Assembly: GCF_001999765.1 (NCBI RefSeq)
Contig: NZ_KV908325.1
Coordinates: forward strand, 1-62,245
DNA: 62,245 nt
DNA from: Sinomonas mesophila
GTDB taxonomy: Bacteria; Actinomycetota; Actinomycetes; Actinomycetales; Micrococcaceae
Direction: 5' to 3'
Shown here piece by piece: positions 16,359 to 38,155 of the stretch. Position 1 is the first letter of the stretch. Every line of letters begins with the position of its first letter. The position numbers were made by a program, and so were the translations under genes. The notes under the pieces are model-generated. The model ran no database searches. It was not told where the DNA came from and worked only from the letters and a program-made list of their open reading frames with translations.

Positions 16359-16370
16359 GTTGTCAACAAT
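16359..16370 (-). promoter_or_regulatory. GntR-type operator candidate (copy 2), with -10 box
   Basis: On the minus strand the sequence reads TACGATTGTTGACAAC: a TACGAT -10-like box joined to the TTGTTGACAA dyad. The same joined arrangement is found before the paralogous GntR gene (TATGATTGTTGACAAG near 47380-47396). A repressor bound here would cover the transcription start. Autoregulation of paralogue A is the likely role. Confidence 0.6.
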
Positions 16371-16418
16371 CGTACAGTAGACAGGTGGGGCCTCCGCAAG
16401 AGTCTTCCGCCACGCATT

Positions 16419-22758: not shown

Positions 22759-22902
22759 CTAGTCCGTCTCAGGTCCGGAGCAGTACACGCACGAGACGTC
22801 CTCGCAGTGGAACGTACCCCGGGAGGTCGCGTTCCACTGTGCCGAGACCGCGCGCTGCTGGCCCGTCGGAAGCGAGATGGTGGAGGTATCTGACTGCTTC
22901 AT
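22759..22902 (-). CDS. Cysteine-containing microprotein (47 aa)
   Basis: This ORF is short. It begins MKQSDTSTISLPTGQQRAVS and ends in a compact His/Cys cluster, FHCEDVSCVYCSGPETD. The cysteines are at 33, 38 and 41, directly after His 32, a spacing able to bind zinc or an Fe-S centre or to be modified. AGAGG precedes the ATG. The gene lies 58 nt behind the 69-residue gene, within the leftward micro-gene cluster. I do not know the family, and there is no maturation enzyme nearby that would support calling it a RiPP precursor. Confidence 0.5.
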   Translation of the reverse strand: MKQSDTSTISLPTGQQRAVSAQWNATSRGTFHCEDVSCVYCSGPETD

Positions 22903-22960: not shown

Positions 22961-23170
22961 TCAGCCGAAGGACGGAGCGTCGCCCGGTCCGAGGGCGAGC
23001 ATGGTCACGTCCCTGTCCGCGCCGTGGTCGACGGCCACGAAGCCCTCGTTGTTGAGGAACATCCAGTCCTTCCCGGAGATGCGGGAGGCGGGAGTGTAGA
23101 TGCCGTGGCTGTGTTCCAGCGGGAGCCGCTGGGCCATCTTCCGTTGTGCGCAGAGGGATCGCGATTTCAT
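22961..23170 (-). CDS. Microprotein under a palindromic operator (69 aa)
   Basis: The protein starts MKSRSLCAQRKMAQRLPLEH and continues HSHGIYTPASRISGKDWMFL, then NNEGFVAVDHGADRDVTML. The ribosome-binding site is strong (AAAGGAG, 7 nt before the ATG), and a near-consensus promoter (TTGACA, 17 nt, GATACT) lies just upstream with its -35 inside a 32-bp palindrome. This makes the gene well supported despite its size. No membrane segment or known domain is seen. It seems to be the first gene of its own transcript, followed by the 47- and 53-residue genes. Confidence 0.6.
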   Translation of the reverse strand: MKSRSLCAQRKMAQRLPLEHSHGIYTPASRISGKDWMFLNNEGFVAVDHGADRDVTMLALGPGDAPSFG

Positions 23171-23282: not shown

Positions 23283-23441
23283 TCAGAGCAGTTCTTCGAG
23301 GAGGACTGCGATGTCGAGCTTGCGGATCAGCCGCTCGTGGGAATCGACGTCTTGGGCCTGGCCTGGGAGCGGGGTCGCGGCGCCGGGCCGAGGGGAGACG
23401 GGCGCCGGGAAGCCAGAGCTCCGGGGGGTGCGCCGCTTCAC
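23283..23441 (-). CDS. Microprotein, Pro-rich with C-terminal helix (52 aa)
   Basis: A GTG start overlaps the stop of the 105-residue gene by four bases (GTGA), good evidence for translational coupling. The first half is basic and proline-rich (MKRRTPRSSGFPAPVSPRPG), and the end is a clear amphipathic helix, DSHERLIRKLDIAVLLEELL. Such a tail could bind a partner protein or a membrane face. I do not recognise it. Expression probably depends on the promoter at 23793-23851. Confidence 0.55.
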   Translation of the reverse strand: MKRRTPRSSGFPAPVSPRPGAATPLPGQAQDVDSHERLIRKLDIAVLLEELL

Positions 23442-23755
23442 AGCAGGCTCCCTACGAGGGAGCCCCGGCGGGAGAACAGGGGACCCAGCCCGCCTCGGGC
23501 GAGGTCGTGCAGCAGCTGGCGGTAGCAGGAGAGGGACAGAGGCGGCGCCTGGTGCAGGTCCGCGATGGTGGCGTGGGGACGGTCCACGCGCCACAGGGCG
23601 AGGATCGCCCTGTCCTCCTGTTCATCGTCCAAGGCCCGATAGGGGCCCAGGGGACGATCCGCAGTCAATGCTCGGGCAAAGAGGCCCAAGCGGTCACTGG
23701 GCGTCCGGTTGCCGGAACGGCTCCATACATGGACGACGTCATCGACATCCACCAT
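23438..23755 (-). CDS. Hypothetical protein, first gene of micro-operon (105 aa)
   Basis: The ATG at 23755 (MVDVDDVVHVWSRSGNRTPS) has AAGGAG 9 nt upstream. The core RALDDEQEDRAILALWRVDR then PHATIADLHQAPPLSLSCYR, QLLHDLARGGLGPLF could form a small winged-helix-like domain, but this is weak. No export signal is present. It is translated just before, and coupled to, the 52-residue gene. Its promoter shares -35, -10 and operator with that of the aspartoacylase-family gene at 34926, so the two are probably controlled together. Confidence 0.6.
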   Translation of the reverse strand: MVDVDDVVHVWSRSGNRTPSDRLGLFARALTADRPLGPYRALDDEQEDRAILALWRVDRPHATIADLHQAPPLSLSCYRQLLHDLARGGLGPLFSRRGSLVGSLL

Positions 23756-23792
23756 GGCTCCCAACTCCTTGGTCTGGCTCTGTGGCAATTCT

Positions 23793-23851
23793 GTCGGACA
23801 ATTGTGTCCTACATCACTGTTCGATAGTACCGCTGGACAATCCTGTGTCAA
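23793..23851 (-). promoter_or_regulatory. Promoter plus GTCnGACA-N4-TGTCCnAC operator (copy 1)
   Basis: On the minus strand TTGACA (23851-23846), 16 nt, TACTAT (23829-23824), then 11 nt later the dyad GTAGGACA-CAAT-TGTCCGAC (23812-23793). The promoter at 34847-34905 has the same parts with the same spacer and offset, and CAAACAGTGAC against CGAACAGTGAT between -10 and operator. The GntR protein at 34113-34793 is the likely binder. Confidence 0.7.
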
Positions 23852-23911
23852 GGGATCTAGGGAGCCGCGGCCGCGAGGGTGCGCCCTGGGTGGGTGTATG
23901 TGAAGCTGGAC

Positions 23912-23947
23912 TTAACGGTATGGCCAAGACGATTCCCGTTCCTCTTG
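23912..23947 (+). promoter_or_regulatory. LysR-type dyad in duplicated leader (copy 1)
   Basis: TTAACGGTATGGCC and TTCCCGTTCCTCTTG flank AAGACGAT. It is a weaker copy of the dyad at 26027-26062. The similarity continues through GTAGCGTGGGTGA-like and CACTTCGG blocks to an identical AGGAGGCACCTTGAC start region. The LysR protein at 25077-25976 is the likely binder. Confidence 0.55.
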
Positions 23948-24002
23948 CAGGTAGGAGTTCCTAGCGTGGGTGACGCACGTCACTTCGGCTTCAGGAGGCA
24001 CC

Positions 24003-24977
24003 TTGACGACGCTCACCACGCCACCATCTCGCCCCGCATCGCACGGCTCCATCCAGCGACGACACACAGTCCGCGTCGCTGCCGTGGCCTTGGCCCTCCT
24101 CCTGGCCCTGAGTGCCTGCGGCAACGCCGCCGGCGCCACGGCTGCGAACCCGAGCTCCACTGAACGAGGCGTGAGGGACATCTCCGAGGGCGTCCAGCCG
24201 GACCCGAAGGCTGTAGGCCTGGTCCCGCAGTCCATCAAGGACAAGGGCGAGCTCACGGTTTCGACGGACCTGCACGATCCGCCGACGGACTTCCTCGCGG
24301 AGGACAACCAGACCCCGATCGGTCTCAATCCGGACATCGCCCGGCTCATCGCCAAGAAGCTCGACCTCAGGCTCAAGTTCGTGGACACGAAGTTCGACTC
24401 GATCATCCCGGGCCTCGACGGTGGCCGCTTCGACTTCACCGTGTCGAGCATGGCGAAGACCGAGGAGCGGCTCAAGGTCCTGGACATGATCGACTACTTC
24501 AAGGGCGGCACCTCCATCGGAGTGAACGCGGGCAACCCGCAGAACTTCACCAACGAGACCCTGTGCGGCAAGGACGTCGCCGTCACCCAGGGCTCCACCG
24601 GGCAGCTCCTGCGGCTCCCCGCCCTGAGCGAGAAGACCTGCGTCTCCCAGGGCAAGCCGGCCATCAACCCGGTGACCCTGCCGAACGTCCAGGAGGCCCT
24701 GGTCCAGCTCCATGCCAAGCGGATCGACGCGATCCTCTACGACACGACTGCGCTCGCATGGGCTCAGACGCAACAGCCGGGCTCGTTCCAGATGCTCACC
24801 CCTCCGCTCAACGTCGGTGGCACCGGTATCACGGCAGTGGGCCTGAAGAAGGGCTCGCCGCTGACCCCGGCCATGCAGGCGGCGATCCAGTCGATCCTGG
24901 GAACCCCGGAGTACAAGGAGGCCCTCGAGACCTGGGGTCTTGAGTTCGGGGCCATCGCCGACGCCAAGCTCAACTAG
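24003..24977 (+). CDS. Amino-acid ABC transporter substrate-binding lipoprotein (paralogue 1)
   Basis: The product is a family-3 solute-binding protein of 324 residues. A hydrophobic signal ends in the lipobox LSAC, so the mature protein is anchored by a lipidated Cys. The binding lobes show GLNPDIARLIAKKL, FDFTVSSMAKTEERLKVLDM and GKDVAVTQGSTGQLL. Start choice: the TTG at 24003 follows AGGAGG by 4 nt, as in the gene at 26116; a GTG at 23970 has no ribosome-binding site. No permease gene is adjacent. It is a close paralogue of the protein at 37216-38142, whose permease and ATPase it may share. Confidence 0.9.
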   Translation: MTTLTTPPSRPASHGSIQRRHTVRVAAVALALLLALSACGNAAGATAANPSSTERGVRDISEGVQPDPKAVGLVPQSIKDKGELTVSTDLHDPPTDFLAEDNQTPIGLNPDIARLIAKKLDLRLKFVDTKFDSIIPGLDGGRFDFTVSSMAKTEERLKVLDMIDYFKGGTSIGVNAGNPQNFTNETLCGKDVAVTQGSTGQLLRLPALSEKTCVSQGKPAINPVTLPNVQEALVQLHAKRIDAILYDTTALAWAQTQQPGSFQMLTPPLNVGGTGITAVGLKKGSPLTPAMQAAIQSILGTPEYKEALETWGLEFGAIADAKLN

Positions 24978-24992
24978 CGCGCACATCACCCG

Positions 24993-25026
24993 TCCCCGCC
25001 CACGGCCGCAGCGCCGTGGGCGGGGA
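24993..25026 (+). terminator. Terminator, binding-protein gene
   Basis: A perfect 14-bp stem (24993-25006 with 25013-25026) encloses six bases. It follows the stop by 15 nt and may act on both strands, as the LysR gene converges from the right. A 17-bp tandem duplication (25031-25064) lies between. Confidence 0.85.
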
Positions 25027-25076
25027 TGCCCGTCTCCCTCACCCTTCCGTCTCCCTCACCCTTCCGGCGCGCGCCC

Positions 25077-25976
25077 TCACGGGGCGGAAGGAGCCTGCAG
25101 ATGCCCGAGCACCGCGGCCACGGCTGGTCGGTTCTGGGCTCCCGGGCGAATGACTGCATAGACGTCTCGGTGGAGTTCCGTGACGGAGCTCTGCGGCCAG
25201 TCGAAGCGGTACGTCGGTTCCTGGAGTGGGACGCTCGAGCCGCCGAACAGCATGTCGGGAAGCAGCGCTGCGGCCACCCCTGCCACCGCGAGACCGTGGT
25301 GGAGGCGCAAATCGGGTGATTCGAATCGGACAATGGGCTCGAATCCGGCCTCCCGGCACAAACGCCTCGCCCAGTGGGCCGCATCGCTCTCGGCGGGCTC
25401 GAACACCCAAGGCAGCCGGGCCAGCTCGTGGATCGAGCCCACCTCGTGGGGGACGAAGACGGTGAAGCCGTCTCGCAGAAGGTGGAAGCGCCTCACTTCT
25501 GAATCAACACGACGCGGGGAGTGCGGGTACTCGTCGATCACCGCGATGTCCGCGCGCCTCCCGGTCACAACGTCGAGGGCCGCAGCCGGTTCCAGCTGGT
25601 CGAACTCCAGGACGACATCGGGGTGCGTCTCGGCCAAGCGACGCACCACGTCTGGCAGATATCGCAGTGCGAAGGTGCTGAATGCAGCAAGCCGCACTAC
25701 GCCCTGCACGCGGCTCCGCCGCCTTTCGAGCTCAGCCTCAGCATCCTCGAGGACTGCCACTACCTGATCGGCGGTACGGACGAGCTGACGTCCGGCCTGG
25801 GTGAGATGCACGTGCCGGCCGACCTGTTCGAGCAGGCGCAGGCCGACCTCGTCTTCGAGCTTGGCAAGCTGTTGGGAGATGGCTGAGGAGCTGATGCCTA
25901 CGGAGCGGGAAACGGCTGCGATGCTCCCGCGTGCTCCCAGTTCCCGCAGCAGCACCAGCCGCCGAACCTCCAGCAT
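25077..25976 (-). CDS. LysR-family transcriptional regulator
   Basis: The protein has 299 residues. The N-terminal helix-turn-helix reads GSIAAVSRSVGISSSAISQQ followed by LAKLEDEVGLRLLEQ, and a periplasmic-binding-protein-like sensor follows. It is divergent from the aminotransferase gene at 26116 and convergent with the binding-protein gene. Related dyads lie in front of both (26027-26062 and 23912-23947), so it probably activates both genes in response to an amino acid or its product. Confidence 0.92.
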   Translation of the reverse strand: MLEVRRLVLLRELGARGSIAAVSRSVGISSSAISQQLAKLEDEVGLRLLEQVGRHVHLTQAGRQLVRTADQVVAVLEDAEAELERRRSRVQGVVRLAAFSTFALRYLPDVVRRLAETHPDVVLEFDQLEPAAALDVVTGRRADIAVIDEYPHSPRRVDSEVRRFHLLRDGFTVFVPHEVGSIHELARLPWVFEPAESDAAHWARRLCREAGFEPIVRFESPDLRLHHGLAVAGVAAALLPDMLFGGSSVPLQEPTYRFDWPQSSVTELHRDVYAVIRPGAQNRPAVAAVLGHLQAPSAP

Positions 25977-26026
25977 GAACTGTCCTCCTCGTGAGCCCTG
26001 GGCATCCCGTCATTGTGAATTCTGGC

Positions 26027-26062
26027 TTAAGGATATGGGCAAGACGATGCCCATTCCTCTTA
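26027..26062 (+). promoter_or_regulatory. LysR-type dyad in duplicated leader (copy 2)
   Basis: ATGGGC (26035-26040) and GCCCAT (26049-26054) form a perfect inverted repeat around AAGACGAT, inside a longer imperfect dyad TTAAGGATATGGGC / GCCCATTCCTCTTA. It lies between the LysR gene and the aminotransferase gene it diverges from, the usual place for a LysR operator. Confidence 0.65.
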
Positions 26063-26115
26063 CGGATCGCTGTTCGTAGCGTGGGTGAAGAATCACTTCG
26101 GTCTTAGGAGGCACC

Positions 26116-27348
26116 TTGACCACGTCCACGCCAACACTCCGCCTTGCCTCTCGGGCCAGCCTGCTCGGGGGCTCCGTGATCGATTCCTCCACGTCGCTGC
26201 TCGCGAGCCAGACGCACGACATCGTGCGCTTTGCGATGGGCGCCCCCAACGCGGAGCTCGTCCCCGAGGCAGAATTCGCGCGTCTCTTCGCGGCCGCTCC
26301 CGCCGGCAGTTTCGACTACGGGGCGACCGAGGGGGAGCCCGAGCTCCGTGCCCAGTTGCAGTCCTACCTGCGGCGCCAGGGCCTCGAGGCTGATGCAGAC
26401 CGTCTCCTCATCACAACCGGCGGCATGCAGGGTCTCGACGTCGCCTTCAAGCTGCTGGTTGATCCGGGCGACCTCGTGGTGGTCGAGGCGCCGACCTACA
26501 CGAATGGCATCAGCACCGCGCTGAGCTACGAGGCCAGCCTCCTGGAGGTGCCGATCGACGACGACGGGATGATCGTCGAGGCGCTCCCAGACTTCGTGGC
26601 CCGCGCGGGCAAGACCCCCCGTGTCATCTACACCATCCCCAACTTCCAGAATCCCTCGGGGGCCACACTCTCCGAGCCCCGCCGTCGGCTCCTGCTCGAA
26701 CTCGCCAAGGAATGGGACGCCGTCATCATCGATGACGACCCGTATGGCGCCCTGCGCTTCGACGGCACGGAGGTTCCCGGCTTCGCGGAACTGAGTCCCG
26801 GCAATCCGCGCCTCGTGCAGGTCCGCACGTTCTCGAAGATTCTCGCTCCCGGCCTGAGGATCGGCTGGATGGACCTGGACCCCGCGCTGCGACAGCTCGC
26901 GGTCAACGCCAAGCAGGCCATGGACACCTGCACGAACGTGCCTCTGCAGCACGTCGTGGCGGCCTTCCTGGCCGAAGGGGCCTTGGACGCCCACCTCTCG
27001 CATCTGCGCGCCGTCTACCGGGACCGGAAGGAAGCGCTCCTGCGGTCTCTGGGCCAGCGGTTCGGCAGCGAGGTCGTCGCCACCCATCCCGAAGGCGGCT
27101 TCTTCCTCTGGCTCACCCTTGACGGCCGATACGGGGGCATTGACACAGAGAAGCTCTTCCCCAGGGCCCTGGCCCACGGCGTCGCGTATATTCCGGGGCC
27201 CGCGTTCGCGGCTTCGGGCGGTTTCCGCAACGCCCTCCGGGTGTGCTTTGCGACCTCGACCCCTGAGCGGATCAGGGAGGGCGTCGAGCGCCTGGGCGCG
27301 GCCCTCGATGAGGAGTTGCTTGTCGCCGCGGCGGAGGCCCCCCGGTGA
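26116..27348 (+). CDS. PLP-dependent aminotransferase, class I (2-aminoadipate aminotransferase/LysN-like)
   Basis: The product has 410 residues. Key features are FDYGATEGEPELRAQLQSYL near the N-terminus, NFQNPSGATLSEPRR, the Asp/Tyr pair DDDPYGALRF, the PLP lysine in TFSKILAPGLRIGW, and the C-terminal FRNALRVCFAT with the substrate-carboxylate Arg. This is the subgroup of MocR-like enzymes without a DNA-binding domain, which includes LysN and aromatic or branched-chain aminotransferases. The start is TTG with AGGAGG 4 nt upstream. Its stop overlaps the GTG of the SDR gene. A LysR-type dyad lies upstream. Confidence 0.88.
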   Translation: MTTSTPTLRLASRASLLGGSVIDSSTSLLASQTHDIVRFAMGAPNAELVPEAEFARLFAAAPAGSFDYGATEGEPELRAQLQSYLRRQGLEADADRLLITTGGMQGLDVAFKLLVDPGDLVVVEAPTYTNGISTALSYEASLLEVPIDDDGMIVEALPDFVARAGKTPRVIYTIPNFQNPSGATLSEPRRRLLLELAKEWDAVIIDDDPYGALRFDGTEVPGFAELSPGNPRLVQVRTFSKILAPGLRIGWMDLDPALRQLAVNAKQAMDTCTNVPLQHVVAAFLAEGALDAHLSHLRAVYRDRKEALLRSLGQRFGSEVVATHPEGGFFLWLTLDGRYGGIDTEKLFPRALAHGVAYIPGPAFAASGGFRNALRVCFATSTPERIREGVERLGAALDEELLVAAAEAPR

Positions 27349-28109
27349 CCGCGACAGCCCACTCTACGCGGACCGCACTCGTGACCGGCGCCACGTCGGG
27401 CATCGGGATCGCGATCGCGAAGAGACTGGCAGCCGACGGGCTCACCGTCGTCATCAGCGGCCGTTCCACGGAGCGCGGCACAAGCGTCGCCCGAGAACTC
27501 GGGCCGAACGGGCACTTCCTTCGGGCCGACCTCGCACAACCGGATGCCGCAGACACCCTGATCGAGGAGACCCTGATGCTTGCCGGCCGTCTGGACGTCC
27601 TCGTCAATAACGCTGCGATCGACCATATCGGGCCCCTGCTGGACGTCCCCGCCAGCGAGATCGTGCAGACCTTCGAGACGAACACGTTCGGTGCCATCTC
27701 CTGCCTCCAGGCAGCAGGCCGTGCCATGAGGGACACGGGCGACGGTGGGGCGATCATCAACATCACCTCGCGCCTCGCGAGCATCGGAGTGCCCACGATG
27801 TCGATCTACAGCGCCAGCAAGGGGGCCCTTCTCGCCCTCACGAGGGCTGCTGCCGTGGAACTCGCACCGCACAACATCCGGGTCAACGCGGTCGCCCCGG
27901 GAATGACCAACACCCCCCTCTATGCCGAGTGGGTGTCGAACCAGGATGACCCCGAGGGGACCATGCGCCGCGTGGCCGACGCCATTCCGCTCAAGCGCAT
28001 CGCGGACCCGGGCGACGTCGCCGCCGCGGTCGCCTATCTGGCCAGCCCGGACGCGTCCTACGTCACCGGGGTCTCGATTCCCGTCGACGGCGGATATCTC
28101 GCCCAGTAG
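27345..28109 (+). CDS. Short-chain dehydrogenase/reductase (SDR)
   Basis: The protein has 254 residues and starts with GTG in a GTGA overlap with the aminotransferase gene. TGATSGIG is the cofactor loop, LVNNAAIDHIG the structural NNAG-like motif, and YSASKGALLAL carries the catalytic Tyr and Lys, with SRLAS before it. Coupling to the aminotransferase suggests it reduces or oxidises a hydroxy or keto acid made by transamination. The exact substrate is unknown. Confidence 0.9.
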   Translation: MTATAHSTRTALVTGATSGIGIAIAKRLAADGLTVVISGRSTERGTSVARELGPNGHFLRADLAQPDAADTLIEETLMLAGRLDVLVNNAAIDHIGPLLDVPASEIVQTFETNTFGAISCLQAAGRAMRDTGDGGAIINITSRLASIGVPTMSIYSASKGALLALTRAAAVELAPHNIRVNAVAPGMTNTPLYAEWVSNQDDPEGTMRRVADAIPLKRIADPGDVAAAVAYLASPDASYVTGVSIPVDGGYLAQ

Positions 28110-28214
28110 TCGCTGAGCGAGGCGAGGGCGCCCGGTGAAGGTGCCACCGATATGCTTGATGTCCAGCCATCCCAGCAGGTGGTGCTGCAGCCATCTCATG
28201 GGAGAGAAATTCAC

Positions 28215-28685
28215 GTGTCGAAGAATCCGCCGGACGAGATCGACGCCAGTATTCTGGCTGCTCTGCGTGCCAATGCCAGGATCAGTCACGCTCAACTGGG
28301 GGAGAAGGTGCTGCTCTCCCGAAATGCCGTCCGGGCGCGGATCGAGCGGCTGGAACGTGAAGGATATATTCGCGGCTACACCATCAAGGAAGCGGTTCTC
28401 GACGGCGAGCGGCCCGTCAGCGCCATCCTTCTCGTGCACCGTTCCGATCGGATGCGGGGCAGCGACGTCATCGCCGGCCTCCGGGCGCTGCCGGAGGTGG
28501 TGACCTGCGACGTCGTGAGTGGAGAGCTTGATCTCGTCGTGCGGGTTGAGGCCCGTGATGCCGATCGGATCCGGGAGATCTGGAGGCTGGTCTCGGAGCT
28601 GCCCGGGGTGAAGGACATGACCACTGCCTTCTCCCTCTCCACGGTGATCGACCGCCGCGTGGGCGGTGACAAGCGTTTGGGTTGA
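28215..28685 (+). CDS. Lrp/AsnC-family transcriptional regulator
   Basis: The protein has 156 residues. The N-terminal helix-turn-helix is IDASILAALRANARISHAQL then LLSRNAVRARIERLEREGYI, and a C-terminal RAM domain follows (PVSAILLVHRSDRMRGSDVI, PEVVTCDVVSGELDLVVRVE). I chose the GTG at 28215 because GGAGAG lies 8 nt upstream. It follows the SDR gene on the same strand. Lrp proteins sense amino acids, and the RAM-only protein at 41146 could pair with this one. Confidence 0.92.
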   Translation: MSKNPPDEIDASILAALRANARISHAQLGEKVLLSRNAVRARIERLEREGYIRGYTIKEAVLDGERPVSAILLVHRSDRMRGSDVIAGLRALPEVVTCDVVSGELDLVVRVEARDADRIREIWRLVSELPGVKDMTTAFSLSTVIDRRVGGDKRLG

Positions 28686-28698
28686 GACAAGAAATAGG

Positions 28699-28738
28699 GG
28701 GTGCTGAGGCCCGGGCAAGGAGTCGGGCCCCAGCACCC
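28699..28738. terminator. Bidirectional terminator
   Basis: A 15-bp stem with one mismatch (28699-28713 with 28724-28738) lies between the convergent Lrp and aldehyde dehydrogenase genes. Confidence 0.8.
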
Positions 28739-28838
28739 TGCCGGTATTTCCGGCGGGCTCATCGCGGTGGCCTGGTTCTGGAGTCAGTGCCAGGCCCCAG
28801 AGGCCAGGCGTGCTACCCGCAATGAGGATCTGGGGGGT

Positions 28839-30266
28839 CTAAGAGGCGATCGCGACCACCTTGGGCTGGGTCATCTCCTCATAGGCGAACCTGACTCCTT
28901 CGCGGCCCATGCTCCCGTACTTTGCGCCTCCGAAGGGCATGGCATCGAACCGGTAGTCGGAGGAGTCGTTGATCATCACGCCGCCTGCTTCGATGGCCTT
29001 CGCAGTGCGGAGGGCGCGGTCCAGGTCCTTGGTGAAGAGGCCCGCCTGGAGAGCGTAGTCAGAGTCGTTGGCGAGACTGATCGCTTCCTCGGTGGTGTCG
29101 AAGGGCTCCACGAGCATGAGGGGAGCGAAGGCCTCCTCGGCCCAGGCCGCACACGTGTGCGGGACATCGGTGAGGACAGCCGGCGTCAGGACCGAGCCGT
29201 GGAGCGTGCCGCCGGCAAGCAGGCGGGCGCCGTGGGCCACGGCCTCGTCGATCTTGCCCTTCGCGGTCGCGGCCGCTTCCACGCTGATCATGGGCCCGAC
29301 GTCGGTGCGCTCGTCTGCGGGGTTCCCGGCGACGAGGGCCTTCGTGGCCGAGACGAAGGCGCCGAGGAACTCCTCGTAGACCGGGCGCTGGACCAGGATC
29401 CTCTGCGCGCCGATGCAGTTCTGCCCCGCCGCCCAGAAGGCGCCCGAGACGCAGGATTCCACCGCCTTGCCCAAGTCCGCGTCGTCGAAGACGATGACCG
29501 GAGCGTTGCCGCCGAGCTCCATCGACAGCCGCTTGATGCCTGCGGTGGCTGCGATGGCGCGTCCCGTGGCGAATCCTCCGGTAAAGGAGACCATGCGCAC
29601 CTGCCGGGAGGAGACGATAGTCTGCGCGACCTCTCGGTCCCCCAGGACGACCGTGATGACGTCCGTTGGCAGGCCTGCCTCGACGAGCAGCTCGACGAGC
29701 CGCATCGCCGTCAGCGGAGTGAGCTGCGACGGCTTGAGGATCACCGAGTTGCCGCCCGCGATCGCAGGCCCCAGCTTGTGGGCGACGAGGTTGAGCGCAT
29801 CGTTGTAGGGGGTGATCGCAGCGATGAGGCCGAGGGGCTCGCGCGTGAACCAGCCCTGCCGGTTCTCAGACCCCGCGAACGCGTCGAACGGAATGACCTC
29901 GCCAGCGCTCCGGCGGGCTTCGTCTGCGGAGAGCCGGAGCGTGTTGACGGCCCGGGTCACTTCCTTGCGTGCCTGCTGGATGGTCTTGCCAGCCTCCGCG
30001 ACGATGAGGTCGGCGATCTCGTCGGCGCACTTCTTGAGGTTCTCGGCGGCGGTGTCGAGGATGCGTCCCCGCTCGTGACGCGGCAGGGCCGCTGCCGTCT
30101 TTGCGGCCGCCGTCGCTCGCTCGATGTCGGCAAGCACCCCGGCCGGGGTGCACTGCGGAAGCGTGGCCAGGAGGGATCCGTTGTACTTGTCCCGGACCTG
30201 CAGTTCAGCTGCCACCGTGGTCAGGGTTGCCCCCGGCGTCGTTGCTTCCAGAGTCGGCTCAGGCAT
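28839..30266 (-). CDS. NAD(P)-dependent aldehyde dehydrogenase
   Basis: The product has 475 residues. It carries [16 protein letters not shown], the catalytic Glu in [16 protein letters not shown] and the catalytic Cys in [14 protein letters not shown]. It belongs to the broad succinate-semialdehyde, aspartate-semialdehyde-like and lactaldehyde group; specificity is not readable by eye. The start overlaps the end of the homoserine-dehydrogenase-like gene by 8 nt, so the pair is coupled. A natural reading is that it oxidises the aldehyde made by that enzyme, aspartate semialdehyde, to aspartate. Confidence 0.9.
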
Positions 30267-31305
30267 GGACCTCTCCCTTGAGGGTTGTGTTGATGGCGAT
30301 GATGTCCGAGATCAGCGCGTACGCCGTCTCAGTGCGGCCGGCGCCCGGGCCAGAGACCGTGACGTGGCCGAGGAGATCCGTGTCGAAGGACACGGCGTTG
30401 GTCGCCCCGGAAATGCCGGCGAGCGGGTGGCTCGCCGGCAGGGCGAGCGTGCACACCGAGGCCGTCACGGTGCCGTCCTCCTGACGGACCGCCTGCCCGA
30501 TGAGCTTCCAGCGGTTGCCTTCCGCGAGGGCGCGAGCTACGTCATCGGGCGTGATGTCTTCGATGCCCTTCGTAGCGACGTCGCCGGGAGTGAGGTTGGC
30601 GCCGAGCAGCTCGTTGGCGAGGATGGCGACCTTGAGGCGCACGTCGGAGCCGCCGATGTCAGCAGTGGGGTCGGCCTCGGCATAGCCGAGGGCCTGCGCC
30701 TCTGAGACGGCCTCATCGAGGGAGAGGCCCGTCTCCATCTGGCCCAGGACGTAGTTGCTCGTCCCGTTCAGGATTCCCTGGACACCCTTGACCTGGAGGC
30801 CGGCGAGCATGGTGTGTGCAAGGCGGAGGACTGGCGTCCCGCTCATGACCGAGCCTTCGAATTCGAACCGGACCGAGTTCTGCTCCGCCAGGCGCGACAG
30901 TTCGGCGCCGTGCAGTGCGACCGGCCCCTTGTTCGTCGTCACGACGTGCTTGCCGGCTTCGACGGCCCAGCGGACATGCGAGACAGCCGGTTCGCCGTCG
31001 ATCGGGCTCGTGAACGTCGCCTCGACGACGATGTCCGCGGGGCTGTTCTTGATGACGTCCTCGTTGCGGGGTTCGGCGCTTCCCCCAGGAAGGCCGGCGA
31101 AGGACGCGCCACGCGGCATGGCCAGAACGGCTCCGAGGTCGATGCCGTCTGCCTGGACGAGAGAGCCGAAGCCCAGGTCGGTGATGGCGACGACCTTCAG
31201 CTCGAAGCCAAGGGCGACGAAACGCTCGGGCTCGTCGCGGATGAGCTCGGCCAGGGCGCGGTTGACGCCTCCAAAGCCGATGAGGGCAAGACTGTACGTG
31301 GCCAC
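30259..31305 (-). CDS. Homoserine dehydrogenase-like protein, no ACT domain
   Basis: The protein has 348 residues. The cofactor loop is [14 protein letters not shown], and the family core is present: [25 protein letters not shown] and [20 protein letters not shown], which includes the catalytic lysine region. The regulatory ACT domain of biosynthetic homoserine dehydrogenase is missing, which fits a catabolic enzyme. The start is GTG with GGAGG 4 nt upstream. It precedes and overlaps the aldehyde dehydrogenase gene. Oxidation of homoserine or a similar hydroxy-amino acid is likely. Confidence 0.85.
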
Positions 31306-31461
31306 GGATCCTCCGTTGGTAGTGGGTTGATGCTGCTCCCTCAAGCGTCGGTCGGAAGAGGGTCAGTGTCCTATGCGCAATCTGCTCGTTGCCCCTCGCG
31401 AACTGACCAAAGGAGGGCAGTCAGGGCGCGCACATGAGAAGGCGAGGCGCCGGACTCATGA

Positions 31462-31499
31462 CTGAGCCCTCGGTCTGCGACTGCAGACCGAGGGCTCAG
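31462..31499 (-). terminator. Terminator of the RidA-PLP enzyme-SDR operon
   Basis: A perfect 17-bp stem (31462-31478 with 31483-31499) with a GACT loop lies 10 nt past the stop of the leftward SDR gene. Confidence 0.9.
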
Positions 31500-31508
31500 A
31501 GCTGGTCA

Positions 31509-32243
31509 TCATGCGGCGGTGTAGCCGCCGTCGACGGGGAGGGTTGCCCCGGTGATGTAGGAGGACTCGGACGAGGCGAGGAAGAGCACGGCGTCGGCGA
31601 CCTCCTCCGGGGTGGCCAGGCGCTGGAGGGGGATCTGCCCCTCGCGCTGCCGGCGGTAGGCCTCGGGATCGGGTCGCCGCTGGATGGAGGCTTCGATGAT
31701 CGGGGTCGCGGTCAGGCCGGGGGCGACGACGTTGACCCGGATGTTCCGGGAGGCCCACTCGATCGCCGCGCCCTTGGCGAGCATGATGAGCCCGCCCTTG
31801 GCGGCGGAGTACAGGACCTGGTCCGCCATGCCGACCATGCCGAGGCGGGAGCTGACGAGGACGAAGGAGCCGCCCGTGGCGGGCATGAGGGGCGCGAAGT
31901 GCTTCAACACGAGGACCGAGCTGAGCAGGTTGCTGTGCAGCGTGTTCTTCGCGTCCTCGTAGGACATCTCGGTCAGCGGGCTGACAACCTGGAGGCCGTG
32001 GTTGAGCACGACCGTGTCGATCGTGCCGAAGGTCTCGGCGGCCTCGCGGGCCAGACGCTCGACGAAGGCCTCGTCGTTGAGGTCTCCGGGGACGTAGACG
32101 TCCTCGGGCTGGGCGCTGTCGATCTGCTCCTTGCGTCCGGTGAGCAGCAGCCGGGCGCCTTCGCGGCGGAAGTGGGAGCACACGGCCTGGCCGATGCCGC
32201 TGTTGGCGCCCGTGACCAGGGCGGTGACTTTATCGAGTCTCAT
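31509..32243 (-). CDS. Short-chain dehydrogenase/reductase (SDR)
   Basis: The product has 244 residues. [11 protein letters not shown] is the cofactor loop, VVLNHG replaces the usual NNAG, and [14 protein letters not shown] carries Tyr and Lys with SSRLG before. [16 protein letters not shown] closes the fold. It is the last gene of a leftward operon after RidA and the D-amino-acid PLP enzyme. It could reduce the keto product of that enzyme. It is only distantly similar to the SDR at 27345. Confidence 0.9.
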
Positions 32244-32282
32244 GGCAGACCCTTCCTTGATGATAGATAGTGGGGTGCCGTC

Positions 32283-33382
32283 TCAGCCGAGGAATCCGCG
32301 GGCGTCGACGGGCCAGCGCTCGAGCGAGGTGCCGGTGCTGTCGGTGACGATGTACTCCTCGAAGTTCACCACGACCGGGCAGACGTGGTTGGGCACGACG
32401 GGGAGCACGGTGCCCACGCTCGGGCGGAAGTCCCCGTCGGGGAGCGGGAGGAATCCGTGGTACTCGTTGAGCTTGGACAGCACGGCCGTGGTGCCCGCGA
32501 TGCCGCTGTAGCCGATCTCGGGGCTGCCCTCGCGGCCGATGGCCTTGGTGCCGATGTCGAGGATGACCTGGCCGGGGACCTGGTCGCTGACCACGGTGCC
32601 GGCGACGAACAGCGCGATCTGGTCCTGGGTGCAGGCGCCGAGCCTTGCGTTGTTGAGGTCGTTGAACACGTACTCGCCGGGGCGGATCTCGGTGATCACG
32701 CTGTTGGTGGCGAACTCCACGGTGGGCGTGGAGCCGGCGCTGACCACCTCCGGGGTGATGCCCACGGCCTTGAGGCTGCGCACCGCGGCAGTGAGGGCGG
32801 CCTCCTGGTCCTGTGCCGCACGCTCGCGGGCGTCGGGGCCGGCGCTGCCGTGGCCCGGGTAGGTGAACACCCCCGCCGGGACAAGGCCGCGGCTGCGCGC
32901 GGAGGCGGCCAGCTCGCCTGCCGCCTCAGGGGATACGCCGGAGCGGCGGGCGCCGCAGTCGACCTCGACCACGATCTCCAGCCGCCCGGCGTCGTCCCCC
33001 ATCGCCTCGGCGAGGACGTCGATGGCGGCGAGGTTGTCGACGCCGACCCGCAGGCGGGTCGTCTCGGCCAGCTTGCGGATCCTCGGGCCCTTGGTCCCCG
33101 CGGCCCAGACGGGGTAGGCGATGAAGATGTCGCCGAAGCCGGCCGCGGCGAAGACCTCGGCCTCGCCTACGTTGCCCGCGGTGATGCCTACGGCACCCGC
33201 GTTGACCTGGCGGCGGCCGATCTCGACGCACTTGTGCGTCTTGACGTGCGGCCGGACCTGGAGGCCCCGCTGGTCGGCGAAGGCCTGCATGCGCTCGATG
33301 TTGTCCTGCATCACGTCGGCCAGGATGATCGGGGCCGGGGTGTCGATGCGCTCGACGAGCGCGTCGAGCGCCTTCTCCTCAT
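32283..33382 (-). pseudogene. D-threonine aldolase / D-serine dehydratase-like PLP enzyme, N-terminal frameshift
   Basis: The reading frame 32283-33314 encodes 343 residues of an alanine-racemase-fold enzyme with the PLP lysine in RPHVKTHKC, a glycine-rich YPGHGSAG segment and a C-terminal NHVCP that matches the metal site of D-threonine aldolase and D-serine dehydratase. The family's usual N-terminus (ERIDTPAPIILADVMQDNIE) is also encoded, but it lies upstream of the first possible start and is out of frame with the only ATG (33382) by one base. Either the gene lost one base near 33370-33382 or translation starts at the GTG at 33314. The catalytic parts are intact, so a sequencing error is a real option. 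Confidence 0.75.
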
Positions 33383-33407
33383 GGTTTCGGGGTTTGGTGG
33401 AGTGCCG

Positions 33408-33878
33408 CTACACGGCGGTGACGATCATCTGGATCTCGACCGGGCTCGTACGCGGGAGCCCGGCGACGCCGATCGCGGTGCGGGAATGCCGTCCGTTCTC
33501 ACCGAGGACCTCGATGAGAAGCTCGCTGGCCGCGTTGGCGACCTGGGACTGCAGGCCGAAGTCCGGTGGGCTGGCCACGAAGACGAGCATCTGGACGATC
33601 CGGACCCGCTCCAGGTCTCCGATCGCCTGCACGGCGGCGGCGAGGCAGTTGAGCGCGGCATGGCGCGCGAGCTCCTGCGCCGCCTCCAGGTCAACGTCCT
33701 GCCCCACAGTGCCCTGGCCCAGCAGCACGCCGTCCTTGAACGGCAGCTGGCCCGAGATGTGGATGCTCTCGCCCACCGCATTGTGGTGGATGTAGTACGG
33801 ATTCTCCGCGAGGACCGGGAGCTCCCGGCCGAGGGCTCGGAGGCGGTCTGTTGCCGAGCCGGTCTTGGTAACACTCAT
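33408..33878 (-). CDS. RidA-family protein (enamine/imine deaminase)
   Basis: The protein has 156 residues of the RidA/YjgF/UK114 family: YYIHHNAVGESIHISGQLPF, then AALNCLAAAVQAIGDLERV and the C-terminal RTAIGVAGLPRTSPVEIQMI with the conserved Arg. RidA proteins hydrolyse reactive 2-aminoacrylate-type enamines released by PLP dehydratases. Its place directly upstream of a D-serine-dehydratase-like gene makes that job likely here. It belongs to the longer relatives rather than the 130-residue archetype. Confidence 0.88.
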   Translation of the reverse strand: MSVTKTGSATDRLRALGRELPVLAENPYYIHHNAVGESIHISGQLPFKDGVLLGQGTVGQDVDLEAAQELARHAALNCLAAAVQAIGDLERVRIVQMLVFVASPPDFGLQSQVANAASELLIEVLGENGRHSRTAIGVAGLPRTSPVEIQMIVTAV

Positions 33879-33988
33879 GTGAGTTCAGGTCCTCTCTTGA
33901 AAGCCGCAGGGCGTGGCAGGCCACGGGGACGGATCGGTCGGTCCGGCCGGCGTCCTCTTCTGCGTATGTGAAATGTGGTGAGTGCGTG

Positions 33989-34110
33989 TTAGAGGGCGGT
34001 GTCGCCGCCGCTGATCAGGAGTGTTGTAGGGGACTCGAAGGGACGATAAAGAGCGCGGCGTCCGCGATCTCCTCGAAGGGGCCGCGGCAGATGTCCTTAC
34101 GGGGACGCGG
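33989..34110 (-). pseudogene. Remnant of an SDR C-terminus
   Basis: Between the RidA and GntR genes the minus strand reads PFEEIADAALFIVPSS and, after a frame change, TTLLISGGDTAL before a stop at 33989. This is the usual end of an SDR (EEIADAALFLAS...DGG...). The remainder of the gene is gone. It suggests an earlier SDR gene was lost from this cluster. Confidence 0.5.
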
Positions 34111-34112
34111 TC

Positions 34113-34793
34113 CTACGTTTGGTAGTAGTGCTCTTCGAGAGCCTTGATCAGCACCTCGCTGTCGCCGGTCATGGCGGCGTCCAAGAGCAGCAGGTGCCGA
34201 GTGGCCTGCGTGTCGCCGCTGCCGACTCCGCGCCGCATGATCGGCACCATCATGACGGCGAGAAGGGACTCCAGGCTTTGCCAGGCCTCGAACAGCTTTG
34301 CCCTGGGCTGCTGGCTCATCAACGTTCCGTGGAACTCCCGGTCCAGCCTCATGAGCTCGTCGACGTCATCCGGCAGCCGCAGCCCCCGCATGCGTTCCGC
34401 GATATCCCTCAGCTCCTTCTCCGCGCTCTCGGACGGGGGAAGCGCCGCGTGCCGGGCCGCTCGTCCTTCGAGTGCTGCGAAGACTTCCCCGATCTCGGCA
34501 ATGTCGCTGTCGCTGAAGTAGCGGACCCGGTTGCCGGAGCCGGGCGAGAACTCCACCAGGCCGGTTGAGGCGAGTCGGGTCAGGGCCTCGCGGATGGTGC
34601 CGCGGCTCACCGAGAGATCCTCGGCGAGCCTTGTCTCCACCAGATGCCGACCCGGGTCGAGGGTTCCGAGGATGATCTCTCTCCGTATGCGGTGCTCCAC
34701 CTGATCCACGAGGGTTGTCCGCTGCGCGGCTCGGGGCGCAAGCGTCCTCGCAAGAGTTGCCCCAGCTGGCTCAGAGAAGGGCCTTTTCTCCAT
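34113..34793 (-). CDS. GntR-family regulator, FCD type (third type)
   Basis: The product has 226 residues. The winged helix is GTLDPGRHLVETRLAEDLSV then SRGTIREALTRLASTGLVEF; the helical effector domain holds FHGTLMSQQPRAKLFEAW. The ATG at 34793 is favoured over one at 34877, which would run into the promoter region. It is divergent from the aspartoacylase-family gene; the intergenic region holds the GTCnGACA-N4-TGTCCnAC dyad that recurs at 23793. It is the best candidate for the binder of both dyads. Confidence 0.87.
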   Translation of the reverse strand: MEKRPFSEPAGATLARTLAPRAAQRTTLVDQVEHRIRREIILGTLDPGRHLVETRLAEDLSVSRGTIREALTRLASTGLVEFSPGSGNRVRYFSDSDIAEIGEVFAALEGRAARHAALPPSESAEKELRDIAERMRGLRLPDDVDELMRLDREFHGTLMSQQPRAKLFEAWQSLESLLAVMMVPIMRRGVGSGDTQATRHLLLLDAAMTGDSEVLIKALEEHYYQT

Positions 34794-34846
34794 TTGCCTC
34801 ACACCCCTAGGTGGCTCATGGCGCCACCCCCGGTCGGGAGTGGGCC

Positions 34847-34905
34847 TTGACACATGATCACCTGACGATAGTATCAAACAGTGACGTCAGACACTACTGT
34901 CCGAC
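34847..34905 (+). promoter_or_regulatory. Promoter plus GTCnGACA-N4-TGTCCnAC operator (copy 2)
   Basis: TTGACA (34847-34852), 16 nt, TAGTAT (34869-34874), then 11 nt later GTCAGACA-CTAC-TGTCCGAC (34886-34905). It drives the hydrolase gene at 34926. The same design in the same spacing lies on the other strand at 23851-23793. Confidence 0.75.
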
Positions 34906-34925
34906 AATCATAGGAGGGACACACC

Positions 34926-35876
34926 ATGGACGGCCGGACCAGCCAAGAAGCCGTGATTCGCGGCTACTTGCGGATTCCGGGGCTTCCTGACGGGGACTTG
35001 GAGCTGCCCTATCTCCAGTTCCAAGGCCGGGCAGCAGGGCCTCGACTGACGTTGCTGTCCGGCGTGCACGGTTGCGAGTACTCGGGCATGGCTGCCCTGC
35101 GCGAGTTCCTTGGTGAGATCGACACCGCGGCACTCATCGGGACCATCACGGCGGTCCCGGTGGTCAACCTCCCGGCGTACACGAGCCGGACACCCTTCGT
35201 GGTTCCAGCCGATGGGAAGAATCTGAACAGGTGCTTTCCGGGTGACCCCAGCGGCACGTACGCCGACGTGCTCGCCCACCATGTCTTCGAGCGGTTCATC
35301 CGTGGAGCGGATTACGTCATCGACGTGCATTCCGGGGACCTCCCCGAGGTCATCGAGCCCCTTGTCGTCTATGACGAATCAGCGGTCGGTGAAGCTGCTC
35401 GGCAGATCGCCCTGGCCTACGGGACGGAGCACGTGATCAGGCAACCGGCCTCGGCGCGGGTCACCACTGGCACGACCAGTGCCGCTGCTGCGGACGCCGG
35501 CGTCCCTGCTATTACTGCCGAGGCGGGAGGCAACGGCGTCGTGAGTGCCCAAGCCGTCGCCACGCATCTCCGGGGGCTGCGGAACGTCGTCGCGACCTTG
35601 GGGATGCTCCCGTATGACGTAGAGCGGCCTTCCCGCCAGATCGAGCACGATCGGGGGTGGAGCTGGATCTACAGCCCCGTTGGGGGCTGGTGGCAACCGC
35701 TCGCCGAGCTCGGCAAGCGGGTCGACGAAGGCGAGGTCCTTGGACGCGTCAGCAACCTGTTCGGTGACGTCATCCACGAGGTGAAGGCACTCGAAGCCGG
35801 AACCCCCATGATCATCACCACGAGCCCCGCGGTTGCCGCGGAGGGGCTCCTTATGGCTCTGACCCAGGAGGTTTGA
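34926..35876 (+). CDS. Succinylglutamate desuccinylase/aspartoacylase-family hydrolase
   Basis: The protein has 316 residues and is a zinc-carboxypeptidase-like amidohydrolase. Zinc ligands are His 48 and Glu 51 in SGVHGCEYSG, and the third His in YVIDVHSGDLPE near residue 140; NLPAYTSRTPFV and DGKNLNRCFPGD are also typical. Members remove acyl groups from N-acylated amino acids or from acetyl-diaminobutyrate in ectoine breakdown. The stop is directly followed by the ATG of the FAD oxidase, with its ribosome-binding site inside this gene, so the two are one operon. Confidence 0.88.
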   Translation: MDGRTSQEAVIRGYLRIPGLPDGDLELPYLQFQGRAAGPRLTLLSGVHGCEYSGMAALREFLGEIDTAALIGTITAVPVVNLPAYTSRTPFVVPADGKNLNRCFPGDPSGTYADVLAHHVFERFIRGADYVIDVHSGDLPEVIEPLVVYDESAVGEAARQIALAYGTEHVIRQPASARVTTGTTSAAAADAGVPAITAEAGGNGVVSAQAVATHLRGLRNVVATLGMLPYDVERPSRQIEHDRGWSWIYSPVGGWWQPLAELGKRVDEGEVLGRVSNLFGDVIHEVKALEAGTPMIITTSPAVAAEGLLMALTQEV

Positions 35877-37064
35877 ATGAGCACTACCAGGAAGCGCGTC
35901 GCCGTCATAGGCCTGGGAACCGCTGGCAGCATGGCTGCCTGGCGCCTGGCCTCACGGGGCGCGGACGTCGTCGGCTACGAGCAATTCGGGACGGGCCACG
36001 ACCGCAGCGCCCATGCCGGCGAGTCTCGCATCTTCCGTACCGCCTACTTCGAAGATCAGGAGTACGCACCACTGCTCCGCACCGCCAAGGCCCTGTGGCG
36101 TCAACTCGAGGCGGAGACGGGCAGCGAGCTCCTCACCCTCGCTGGCCACCTCATGCTCGGGGAGGCTTCGACCGAGATGGCGAACGTCAGCGCCTCCATC
36201 GACCAGTTTGGGGTCGACGCCTCGGTGATCCCTCTCGAGGAGGCGCGCAAGCGCTGGCCGCAGCATCCCTTCCGGGAGGACGACGTCGTCGTGCTCGATC
36301 GCGAAGGAGGCTATCTCCGCCCGGAGCTGGCCGTCCTCAACGCCGCCCGCCGAGCCGAGACGCTCGGCGCCCAGCTGCGGACTTACACTCCCGTCGAGGG
36401 GATCGAGGTCAGGAACGACGGCGTCTGGGTCACGGCCGGTGGTCATAGCGAGCGTTATGATCATGCCGTCGTGACGACCGGCCCCTGGGCCGGCAAGCTC
36501 TTCCCTGAATTTGCGGCGCTCGTTGAAGTGCGCAAGGCAGTGTCGGCGTGGTTCGTCGGGAAGGAAGCCGGGGCCTTCGACCCGGCCCGCTTCCCGTGCT
36601 TCATCCGCGCGACTCCTCGGGAGTTCTACGGGCTGCCGGCGATGGCGGGGAACGGGCTGAAGCTCGGCCTGTCCGGCGCGGTCAATCGGCCTGTTGCCGA
36701 CCCCGACGCCCTCGAGCGGACAGTGCCGCTCGATGAGGTGCAGGCCTTCAGAGAGCTGGTCACGGATTCCTTCCCAGGCCTCTACCCGGACCCGATCCGG
36801 GTCGCCGCCTACATGGATGGCTACACCCGGGACGGGCACGGAATCGTCGGGCGCCTTGGCGGCGAGGAGCGTCTCACTGTGGTCACGGGCCTCTCCGGCC
36901 ACGGATTCAAGCTGGCGCCCGCGCTCGGCGAGATCGCCGCGGACTACGCCCTGGCCAGTTCGAGCGACAACACCCTCGCGCTCCTGAACCCCGATCGCTT
37001 CTTGGCAACCCAGTCCTCGGCGGCGAAGCGGGGAGGTGATACACGTCCCGTTCCCGGCGAATGA
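35877..37064 (+). CDS. FAD-dependent amine/amino-acid oxidase, SoxA/MSOX type (paralogue 1)
   Basis: The product has 395 residues. The dinucleotide fold is VAVIGLGTAGSMAAWRLAS, followed by HAGESRIFRTAYFEDQEYAP, which matches the R-x-x-R region of monomeric sarcosine oxidase and N-methyltryptophan oxidase. VTGLSGHGFKLAPALGEIAA closes the FAD site. The cysteine that binds FAD covalently in those enzymes, expected before a YT motif near residue 310, appears to be Asp (YMDGYTRD). It probably oxidises a secondary amine or N-methyl amino acid. Confidence 0.85.
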   Translation: MSTTRKRVAVIGLGTAGSMAAWRLASRGADVVGYEQFGTGHDRSAHAGESRIFRTAYFEDQEYAPLLRTAKALWRQLEAETGSELLTLAGHLMLGEASTEMANVSASIDQFGVDASVIPLEEARKRWPQHPFREDDVVVLDREGGYLRPELAVLNAARRAETLGAQLRTYTPVEGIEVRNDGVWVTAGGHSERYDHAVVTTGPWAGKLFPEFAALVEVRKAVSAWFVGKEAGAFDPARFPCFIRATPREFYGLPAMAGNGLKLGLSGAVNRPVADPDALERTVPLDEVQAFRELVTDSFPGLYPDPIRVAAYMDGYTRDGHGIVGRLGGEERLTVVTGLSGHGFKLAPALGEIAADYALASSSDNTLALLNPDRFLATQSSAAKRGGDTRPVPGE

Positions 37065-37215: not shown

Positions 37216-38142
37216 GTGAAGACAATCAAGAAGGTCCATGCCGCTGCTGCGGCCCTTGCCCTCCTCCTGACCCTGAACGCCTGCGCCAACGCTGCCAGCG
37301 GCGATTCTGCAAACCCCAGCCCCACCGAGATCGGGCTGCGGGACATCTCCGAGGGCGTCCAGCCCGACCCCAAGGCTGTGAGCCTTCTGCCGCAGGAGTA
37401 CAAGGACAAGGGCGAGCTCACCGTCGCCGCTGACCTGCACTACCCTCCGACGGTCTTCCTCGCCTCTGACAACCAGACGCCGGTCGGCCTCAACCCGGAC
37501 ATCACCCGCCTCATCGCGAAGAAGCTCGGCGTGAAGGTGAAGTTCGTGGACACGAAGTTCGACACGATCATCCCGGGCCTCGACGGTGGCCGCTTCGACT
37601 TCACCGTCTCGACCATGGCCAAGACTGATGAGCGGCTCAAGGTCGTGGACATGATCGACTACTTCAAGGCTGGCAGCTCCATTGGCGTGAACGCCGGGAA
37701 CCCCCAGAACCTGACCAACGAGACCCTGTGCGGCAAGAATGTCGCCGTGACGCAGGGTTCCACCGGCCAGCTACTGCGCCTCCCGGCCCTGAATGAGAAG
37801 ACCTGCACCTCCCAGGGCAAGCCCGCGATCAACGCTGTGACCCTGCCGAACATCCAGGAGGCCCTGGTCCAGCTGCACGCGAAGCGGATCGACGCCATCC
37901 TCTACGACACGACCGCACTCGCATGGGCCCAGACGCAGCAGCCGGGCTCGTTCCAGATGCTCACCCCGCCGCTCAACGTCGGTGGCACCGGCATCACAGC
38001 TGTGGCGCTGAAGAAGGGCTCGCCGCTGACCCCGGCCATGCAGGCGGCGATCCAGTCCATCCTGGGGACCCCGGAGTACAAGGAGGCCCTCAAGACCTGG
38101 GGCCTCGAGTTCGGCGCCATCGACGACGCCAAGCTGAACTAG
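37216..38142 (+). CDS. Amino-acid ABC transporter substrate-binding lipoprotein (paralogue 2)
   Basis: The protein has 308 residues. The signal MKTIKKVHAAAAALALLLTL ends in the lipobox LNAC. The rest aligns almost throughout with the protein at 24003-24977 (for example both have AKRIDAILYDTTALAWAQTQ and KGSPLTPAMQAAIQSILGTP). The N-terminal signals differ strongly. The GTG start follows AAGGAAAG. The gene is directly followed by permease and ATPase genes, so it is the resident binding protein of that importer. Confidence 0.93.
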   Translation: MKTIKKVHAAAAALALLLTLNACANAASGDSANPSPTEIGLRDISEGVQPDPKAVSLLPQEYKDKGELTVAADLHYPPTVFLASDNQTPVGLNPDITRLIAKKLGVKVKFVDTKFDTIIPGLDGGRFDFTVSTMAKTDERLKVVDMIDYFKAGSSIGVNAGNPQNLTNETLCGKNVAVTQGSTGQLLRLPALNEKTCTSQGKPAINAVTLPNIQEALVQLHAKRIDAILYDTTALAWAQTQQPGSFQMLTPPLNVGGTGITAVALKKGSPLTPAMQAAIQSILGTPEYKEALKTWGLEFGAIDDAKLN

Positions 38143-38155
38143 CGGGGGCGCCTTC

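Follow-up and report, generated by a model that had tools for sequence, protein, structure and literature searches.

Predicted tandem operator arrays of a FadR-type regulator and their probable capture by a micro-gene operon in Sinomonas mesophila

For operators of the FadR subfamily of GntR regulators, a published study (PMC4494728) gives the consensus GTM-N0-1-KAC and describes double sites as well as additional, weaker half-sites at a distance of 7-12 nt from the centre of the site; the word 'tandem' does not occur in its text. Here we describe a related arrangement in a 62,245-nt stretch of Sinomonas mesophila (positions 1 to 62,245 of contig NZ_KV908325.1, assembly GCF_001999765.1; hereafter the window), in which two far-apart promoters carry rows of short palindromes, one promoter preceding a hydrolase–oxidase operon beside a FadR-type regulator gene (GntR-A) and the other preceding a pair of micro-genes. 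Comparing sequences, we consider it probable that both rows are GntR-A operator arrays and that the micro-gene operon captured its promoter from elsewhere; a literature search limited to titles and abstract openings found no prior publication on this operator or regulon. The elements concerned are as follows.

23824-23851, minus strand: site-1 promoter, with the -35 box TTGACA at 23851-23846, a 16-nt spacer and the -10 box TACTAT at 23829-23824.
23792-23826, minus strand: site-1 operator array, TATCGAACA at 23818 (overlapping the -10 box), TGTAGGACA at 23805 and TGTCCGACA at 23792 (lowest coordinates).
34847-34874, plus strand: site-2 promoter, with the -35 box TTGACA at 34847-34852, a 16-nt spacer and the -10 box TAGTAT at 34869-34874.
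34872-34906, plus strand: site-2 operator array, TATCAAACA at 34872 (overlapping the -10 box), CGTCAGACA at 34885 and TGTCCGACA at 34898.
34113-34793, minus strand: GntR-A regulator, 226 residues, GntR plus FCD domains (FadR subfamily; Pfam match).
34926-35876, plus strand: AstE/AspA-type hydrolase, first gene of its operon (PF24827, 98.8 bits, cut-off 25).
23438-23755, minus strand: micro-gene 1, 105 residues, conserved in the genus (homologue searches).
23283-23441, minus strand: micro-gene 2, 52 residues, with a GTG start that overlaps the end of micro-gene 1.

The pattern TTGACA-N16-TASTAT has two matches in the window, sites 1 and 2, and 100 shuffles gave a mean of 0.00 and a largest count of 0. 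With their operators, the two elements extend over 23851-23792 (minus) and 34847-34906 (plus), and in ungapped comparison they are identical at 48/68 positions; the rest of the six best places for the site-1 68-mer reach 33-34/68, most of them being shifted or opposite-strand readings of this region, and no unrelated place among them exceeds 33/68. In the 4.0-Mb genome, CTGTCSGACAAT occurs exactly at sites 1 and 2 only, with six further places at one mismatch (the backwards control has nine within one mismatch), and GTNNGACANNNNTGTCCGACA occurs exactly at three places, that is, sites 1 and 2 and C1:158562. Allowing two mismatches adds four rows for the latter sequence: three repeat these sites on the opposite strand and the fourth lies at C3:432050, whereas the backwards control gives one. 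The site-2 promoter is conserved in three other genomes. Re-reading the window bore out the sequences and coordinates that the original prediction had given for both promoters, as well as its gene positions and its statement that only the second promoter lies beside a regulator gene: the GntR gene adjoins site 2, and site 1 sits between the micro-genes and a solute-binding-protein gene.

Each site consists of three 9-bp palindromes near TGTCNGACA, repeated with a 13-bp period and carrying 2, 1 and 0 mismatches in order; TGTCNGACA fits the FadR-subfamily consensus, as given in PMC4494728, with 3 nt between GT and AC. The two promoters had originally been read as sharing 11 nt followed by a single dyad with an N4 centre. 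The shared elements stand, and the anatomy is replaced by tandem palindromes, the 11 nt being mostly operator copy 1 plus a linker and the dyad being copies 2 and 3. We dropped the single dyad in view of the relatives' arrays: upstream of its hydrolase gene, Arthrobacter sp. NtRootA1 has TGTCNGACA without mismatch in copies 2 and 3, and a further genome of the family (G393) has four copies, a fourth following the others, with the first copy kept and the first linker changed from GTGA to ATCA. Over the window and three loci obtained by GntR similarity alone, palindrome pairs with at most 2 mismatches summed, counted at spacings 9-30, fall at spacing 13 (six pairs), 26 (three) and 27 (one), and none of 95 control palindromes reached six pairs at spacing 13 (mean 0.01). 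These six pairs lie at site 1, at site 2 and beside three GntR orthologues, and they are not independent, several of the promoters sharing descent. A wider count, over spacings 10-20, put all 13 of its 13 pairs at 13 bp; it is biased in that it includes loci fetched by a 13-bp-spaced pattern, which the count above leaves out, and one of its pairs (L105 5952) overlaps a called open reading frame (ORF) and may be due to chance.

GntR-A combines a winged-helix GntR domain (PF00392, 60.9 bits, cut-off 27) with an FCD ligand domain (PF07729, 51.3 bits, cut-off 24.3), the combination that defines the FadR subfamily; as a PhnR-type phosphonate regulator (TIGR03338) it scores 83.7 bits, below the NCBIfam cut-off of 271.5, and this assignment was rejected. 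A scan of a one-genome-per-species collection with short peptide patterns, which detects close relatives only, returned five loci, three of which are orthologues (Arthrobacter sp. NtRootA1, 86% identical; Arthrobacter cupressi, 84%; Amycolatopsis pithecellobii, 70%); the other two (31% and 37%) were not used. No close orthologue was found in 14 relatives of the genus, in which the best-scoring matches show 32-35% identity and, among the matches listed, the maximum is 39%, over partial length. A search at E<=1e-50 in 396 genomes of the order likewise returned only the window's own, in a thinned sample with 7 candidates scored per listed genome and in which the inclusion of G393 is uncertain. 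Searching 395 genomes of the family with the operator pattern matched two, the window's own and G393, where the GntR protein adjoining the array is ~81% identical to GntR-A; with the array as bait, G393 is not an independent test of the pairing. The original prediction had linked the palindromic element to the neighbouring GntR gene, and at the hydrolase locus this holds in related genomes: the array adjoins GntR-A in the window, beside all three orthologues found by protein similarity, and in G393 (gene calls in the relatives come from an ORF picker, not from annotation). That sites 1 and 2 would be read by one regulator, GntR-A, is thus well supported at the level of sequence.

The arrays outside the window also point to the kind of genes that GntR-A may control. 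Besides the hydrolase, the cluster behind site 2 contains the following genes, the last line being the paralogue that lies next to site 1.

35877-37064, plus strand: flavin adenine dinucleotide (FAD)-dependent oxidase of the DAO family that passes the NCBIfam threshold for N-methyl-L-tryptophan oxidase.
37216-38142, plus strand: solute-binding protein, paralogue of the 23970-24977 protein (DNA similarity).
38156-39088: permease-like ORF, followed by an ATPase-like ORF, both after the 37216-38142 gene and named by eye.
39866-40996, plus strand: second FAD-dependent oxidase of the cluster (NCBIfam).
23970-24977, plus strand: solute-binding-protein paralogue, divergent from micro-gene 1 (PF00497).

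The two oxidases score 297.9 and 261.7 bits against the N-methyl-L-tryptophan oxidase model NF008425 (cut-off 257), and the substrate is a prediction. The array stands upstream of the hydrolase gene in the window, in NtRootA1 and in G393. In A. cupressi, the array beside GntR-A precedes a 54-residue ORF (L080 7751-7915) at the hydrolase position, followed by the oxidase; the hydrolase behind this conserved promoter has shrunk to that ORF. In the same genome, two DAO oxidase ORFs each have a further array ~150 bp upstream of them (L103 5677, 1 mismatch summed; L103 1810, 3 mismatches), and a 3-mismatch array lies ~220 bp upstream of a homologue of the window ORF at 43380-43736. In Amycolatopsis, two DAO oxidase ORFs flank an array without mismatches (L106 6114), and another array with 3 mismatches (L107 5742) lies 24 bp upstream of a transporter-like ORF. 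Taken together, the set looks like a small regulon for oxidase-based catabolism.

On the micro-gene side, the picture is a local one. The 105-residue family occurs in 13/15 genomes of the genus and in 17/395 of the family (own genome counted), and in the genome studied here a micro-gene stands under this operator twice, as the window copy and as a broken remnant. In ungapped comparison, the site-1 promoter matches four hydrolase promoters at 48-52/68 positions and four promoters of micro-gene relatives at only 23-26/68; its likeness to the hydrolase promoters of A. cupressi (79% over 66 bp, E 1e-10) and NtRootA1 (81% over 64 bp, E 3e-10) includes the spacer. In a gapped profile, site 1 is closer to the hydrolases in the windows from -75 to -35 (0.67-0.83 versus 0.48-0.67), but closer to the micro-gene relatives in the two windows next to the gene (0.72-0.77 versus 0.33-0.55). 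Because the profile switches from hydrolase-like to family-like near the gene, the boundary of the capture is probably located in the stretch from the operator to the ribosome-binding region. A second, decayed promoter copy (72% over 178 gapped columns, E 9e-20) precedes the frame-broken micro-gene remnant at C1:158562. Most likely, to judge from these alignments, the micro-gene pair acquired a copy of the hydrolase promoter, a lineage-specific rewiring that would not be evidence of a shared pathway. The original prediction had held that the micro-genes are co-regulated with the hydrolase and oxidase. One design, one probable regulator and micro-genes under the operator in this genome are supported, but a conserved tie to the hydrolase/oxidase pathway is not: no micro-gene under a GntR-A operator was found in the 4 other GntR-A genomes, an operator within 2 mismatches occurs in 0/14 other genomes of the genus, and the 13-bp array (at most 2 mismatches summed) is absent at 19/19 micro-gene loci of the genus (L061-L079). 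The micro-gene locus of A. cupressi (L119) has an FCD-type neighbour without a 13-bp TGTCNGACA array; NtRootA1 and Amycolatopsis have no micro-gene 1 match below E 0.04; and G393 is not among the 17 family genomes that match micro-gene 1, presuming that both family scans covered the same 395 genomes.

From these observations we infer binding, repression, a ligand and the direction of copying as follows. GntR-A would bind the phased row of TGTCNGACA with its 13-bp period, in which the two good copies lie just downstream of the -10 box and the looser copy lies over it. At site 2 it would repress the hydrolase–oxidase–transporter operon and probably its own gene too, until released by a ligand derived from the substrate. 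The 105+52 micro-gene operon (23755-23283) would carry a copied promoter–operator, gained by duplication and by recombination upstream of the micro-genes' own ribosome-binding region and replacing the promoter type of the relatives, and it would be expected to be induced jointly with the catabolic operon.

Several points weigh against this scenario. Operator copy 1 matches poorly at every site; by eye, each of the Arthrobacter-type sites shows 2 mismatches and Amycolatopsis shows 3, so that this copy may merely be a -10 box that resembles the operator. The link between micro-gene and operator is restricted to one genome. The gapped windows from -105 to -85 do not discriminate (hydrolase 0.83/0.73/0.60 versus micro-gene 0.79/0.77/0.59), because the profile permits gaps and TTGACA is found in both promoter types. 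In ungapped comparison, the remnant promoter matches site 1 at only 17/68 positions, as its spacer is one base longer and it reads TTGAAT, and the Amycolatopsis promoters match at 15-16/68, as their likeness is confined to the operator. For two other A. cupressi places (C3:4354, 1 mismatch; C11:148951, 2 mismatches) no clear target can be seen, another two places in Amycolatopsis, with 2 mismatches, do not rise above the backwards control (2+2), and the genome operator search found no array in NtRootA1 beyond the hydrolase one.

The sites could also be real GntR-A operators with a different target, the micro-genes being mere neighbours of a site 1 that controls the divergent solute-binding-protein gene. 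Site 1 does lie between the two and may serve the divergent gene too; that gene and its counterpart in the GntR-A operon are duplicates with 86% DNA identity (24069-24979 versus 37234-38144, within the same island), and in the FadR subfamily one site in such a divergent region usually controls both operons (PMC4494728). Moreover, a different operon resembling an ATP-binding cassette (ABC) transporter follows the C1:158562 remnant on the same strand, and the remnant promoter may have served it. We nevertheless regard this as unlikely: the -35/-10 pair is directed at the micro-genes with the operator over and after the -10 box, as at site 2, and at C1:158562 the same promoter precedes a micro-gene remnant, and the 18 kb there contain nothing that matches these binding proteins. 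It is very unlikely that the sites are read by another FCD-type regulator, the GntR-B group (46669-47352; 15671-16417; C1:157157-157816). The remnant site at C1:158562 is ~0.8 kb from a GntR-B gene, yet in other genomes the arrays adjoin GntR-A, and 6/14 other genomes of the genus contain GntR-B relatives (E<=1e-40), with the operator, at up to 2 mismatches, in none of the 14. Convergence, in which two unrelated sigma-70 promoters each gained the same repressor site, is conceivable in that operators can evolve independently and the -35 and -10 boxes are close to consensus. The likeness runs through the 16-nt spacer and the linkers, however (CAGGATTGT versus CAAGATTGT; 66 bp at 79% in A. cupressi), and because no shared protein contact demands this, we hold convergence to be highly improbable. 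As for chance, by which a GC-rich window would simply happen to contain a weak dyad and a pair of good promoters, no support for it was found, and the shuffles, the control palindromes and the company of GntR-A in other genomes refute it to the point of leaving almost no room for it. Promoter capture under GntR-A is the reading that we retain.

What the micro-genes do is a separate matter. Micro-gene 1 matched no Pfam or NCBIfam family above cut-off and nothing in PHROGs, had no significant match among PDB sequences (best E 0.17) and none among 72,556 plasmid records, so that spread of the gene by plasmids was rejected; its predicted fold (predicted local distance difference test, pLDDT, 81.7) had 0 matches among PDB structures at E<=0.001 (best 1.3). 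A winged helix was considered from the sequence, and the model has helices 44-55, 64-69 and 72-87 plus short strands, yet no solved structure matches and we claim no fold; pyrophosphatase and acetyltransferase were rejected as weak hits that are under cut-off or not significant. No family was matched by micro-gene 2 in family searches, and a similar ORF follows the micro-gene 1 relative in 7/19 loci. An FCD-type GntR lies within 1.5 kb of micro-gene 1 relatives at 9/21 loci, 7 of the 9 being one conserved arrangement; the remaining 12/21 have none in the stretch examined, which makes this adjacency weak evidence. That FCD-type GntR circuits have the 105-residue protein as a partner, recruited repeatedly (back to back with a sensor-type GntR-FCD, with a different FCD-type GntR on contig C24, and through capture of the GntR-A promoter) and tuning the GntR-A repressor or pathway, we consider doubtful, a slim prospect on the genomic contexts at hand.

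Further observations concern the surroundings. Orphan 105-residue relatives (L065 ~9300-9580, L071 ~8960-9220) stand in a flagellar-looking cluster of putative mot and fli genes, with GAGTAC repeats upstream. Small ORFs on the minus strand lie at 22759-22902 (47 residues) and 22961-23170 (69 residues), and at E<=0.001 the 14 other genomes of the genus match neither; the latter has one paralogue (G000:C9:92365), which shares the upstream GTTGACAATCAAC element. A second shared 5' region in the island comprises the sequences upstream of the solute-binding-protein gene (23899-24026) and of an aminotransferase-like ORF (26014-26136), 79% identical, and A. cupressi likewise has two solute-binding-protein genes. 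The GntR-B set comprises three related FCD-type genes in one genome, the other two being 71% identical to the gene at 46669-47352.

In summary, we propose that a FadR-type repressor controls an oxidase/hydrolase catabolic cluster in Arthrobacter relatives and predict its operator and regulon, and with it a compact case of regulon growth in which a whole promoter–operator would have been copied onto an unrelated operon, with the relatives' promoters available for comparison. It also suggests a condition for micro-gene expression, namely the substrate of the hydrolase–oxidase cluster.

Three described or recurrent systems come closest. The best NCBIfam match of the hydrolase is DoeB/EutE (TIGR02994), the N-acetyl-diaminobutanoate deacetylase of ectoine breakdown, but at 99.9 bits it is far under the 402.7-bit cut-off and identity as DoeB was rejected. 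In the genus and in A. cupressi, divergent GntR-FCD/micro-gene loci (L061-L064 and L119, with L073 and L074 cut by contig ends) resemble the window in having a 105-residue gene beside an FCD-type regulator and, in 5 of the 7, a second gene of 52-55 residues. The L061 regulator (10064-11497, minus strand, ~477 residues), divergent from the micro-gene pair and with relatives in the other six, also matches the sensor model PF22673 (31.5 bits, cut-off 27), with PF02743 below cut-off. Unlike in the window, the regulator is next door and the promoters (L061, L062, L064 and L073) have TTGACATGTGANNTCA...TAGAGTT and other dyads; in most promoters of this type the spacer that separates the -35 box from the -10 box contains a TGTGANNTCACA-like dyad, and a GGGAYC-N3-RTCCC-like one follows downstream. 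To the FadR subfamily, as PMC4494728 presents it, the system is alike in the GntR and FCD domains of GntR-A, the distance between GT and AC in the palindrome, a site in the divergent region by the regulator gene and targets of amino-acid-like catabolism. It differs in the operator itself, which has two good palindromes and one looser palindrome (four in G393) in 13-bp phase, the loose one lying over the -10 box.

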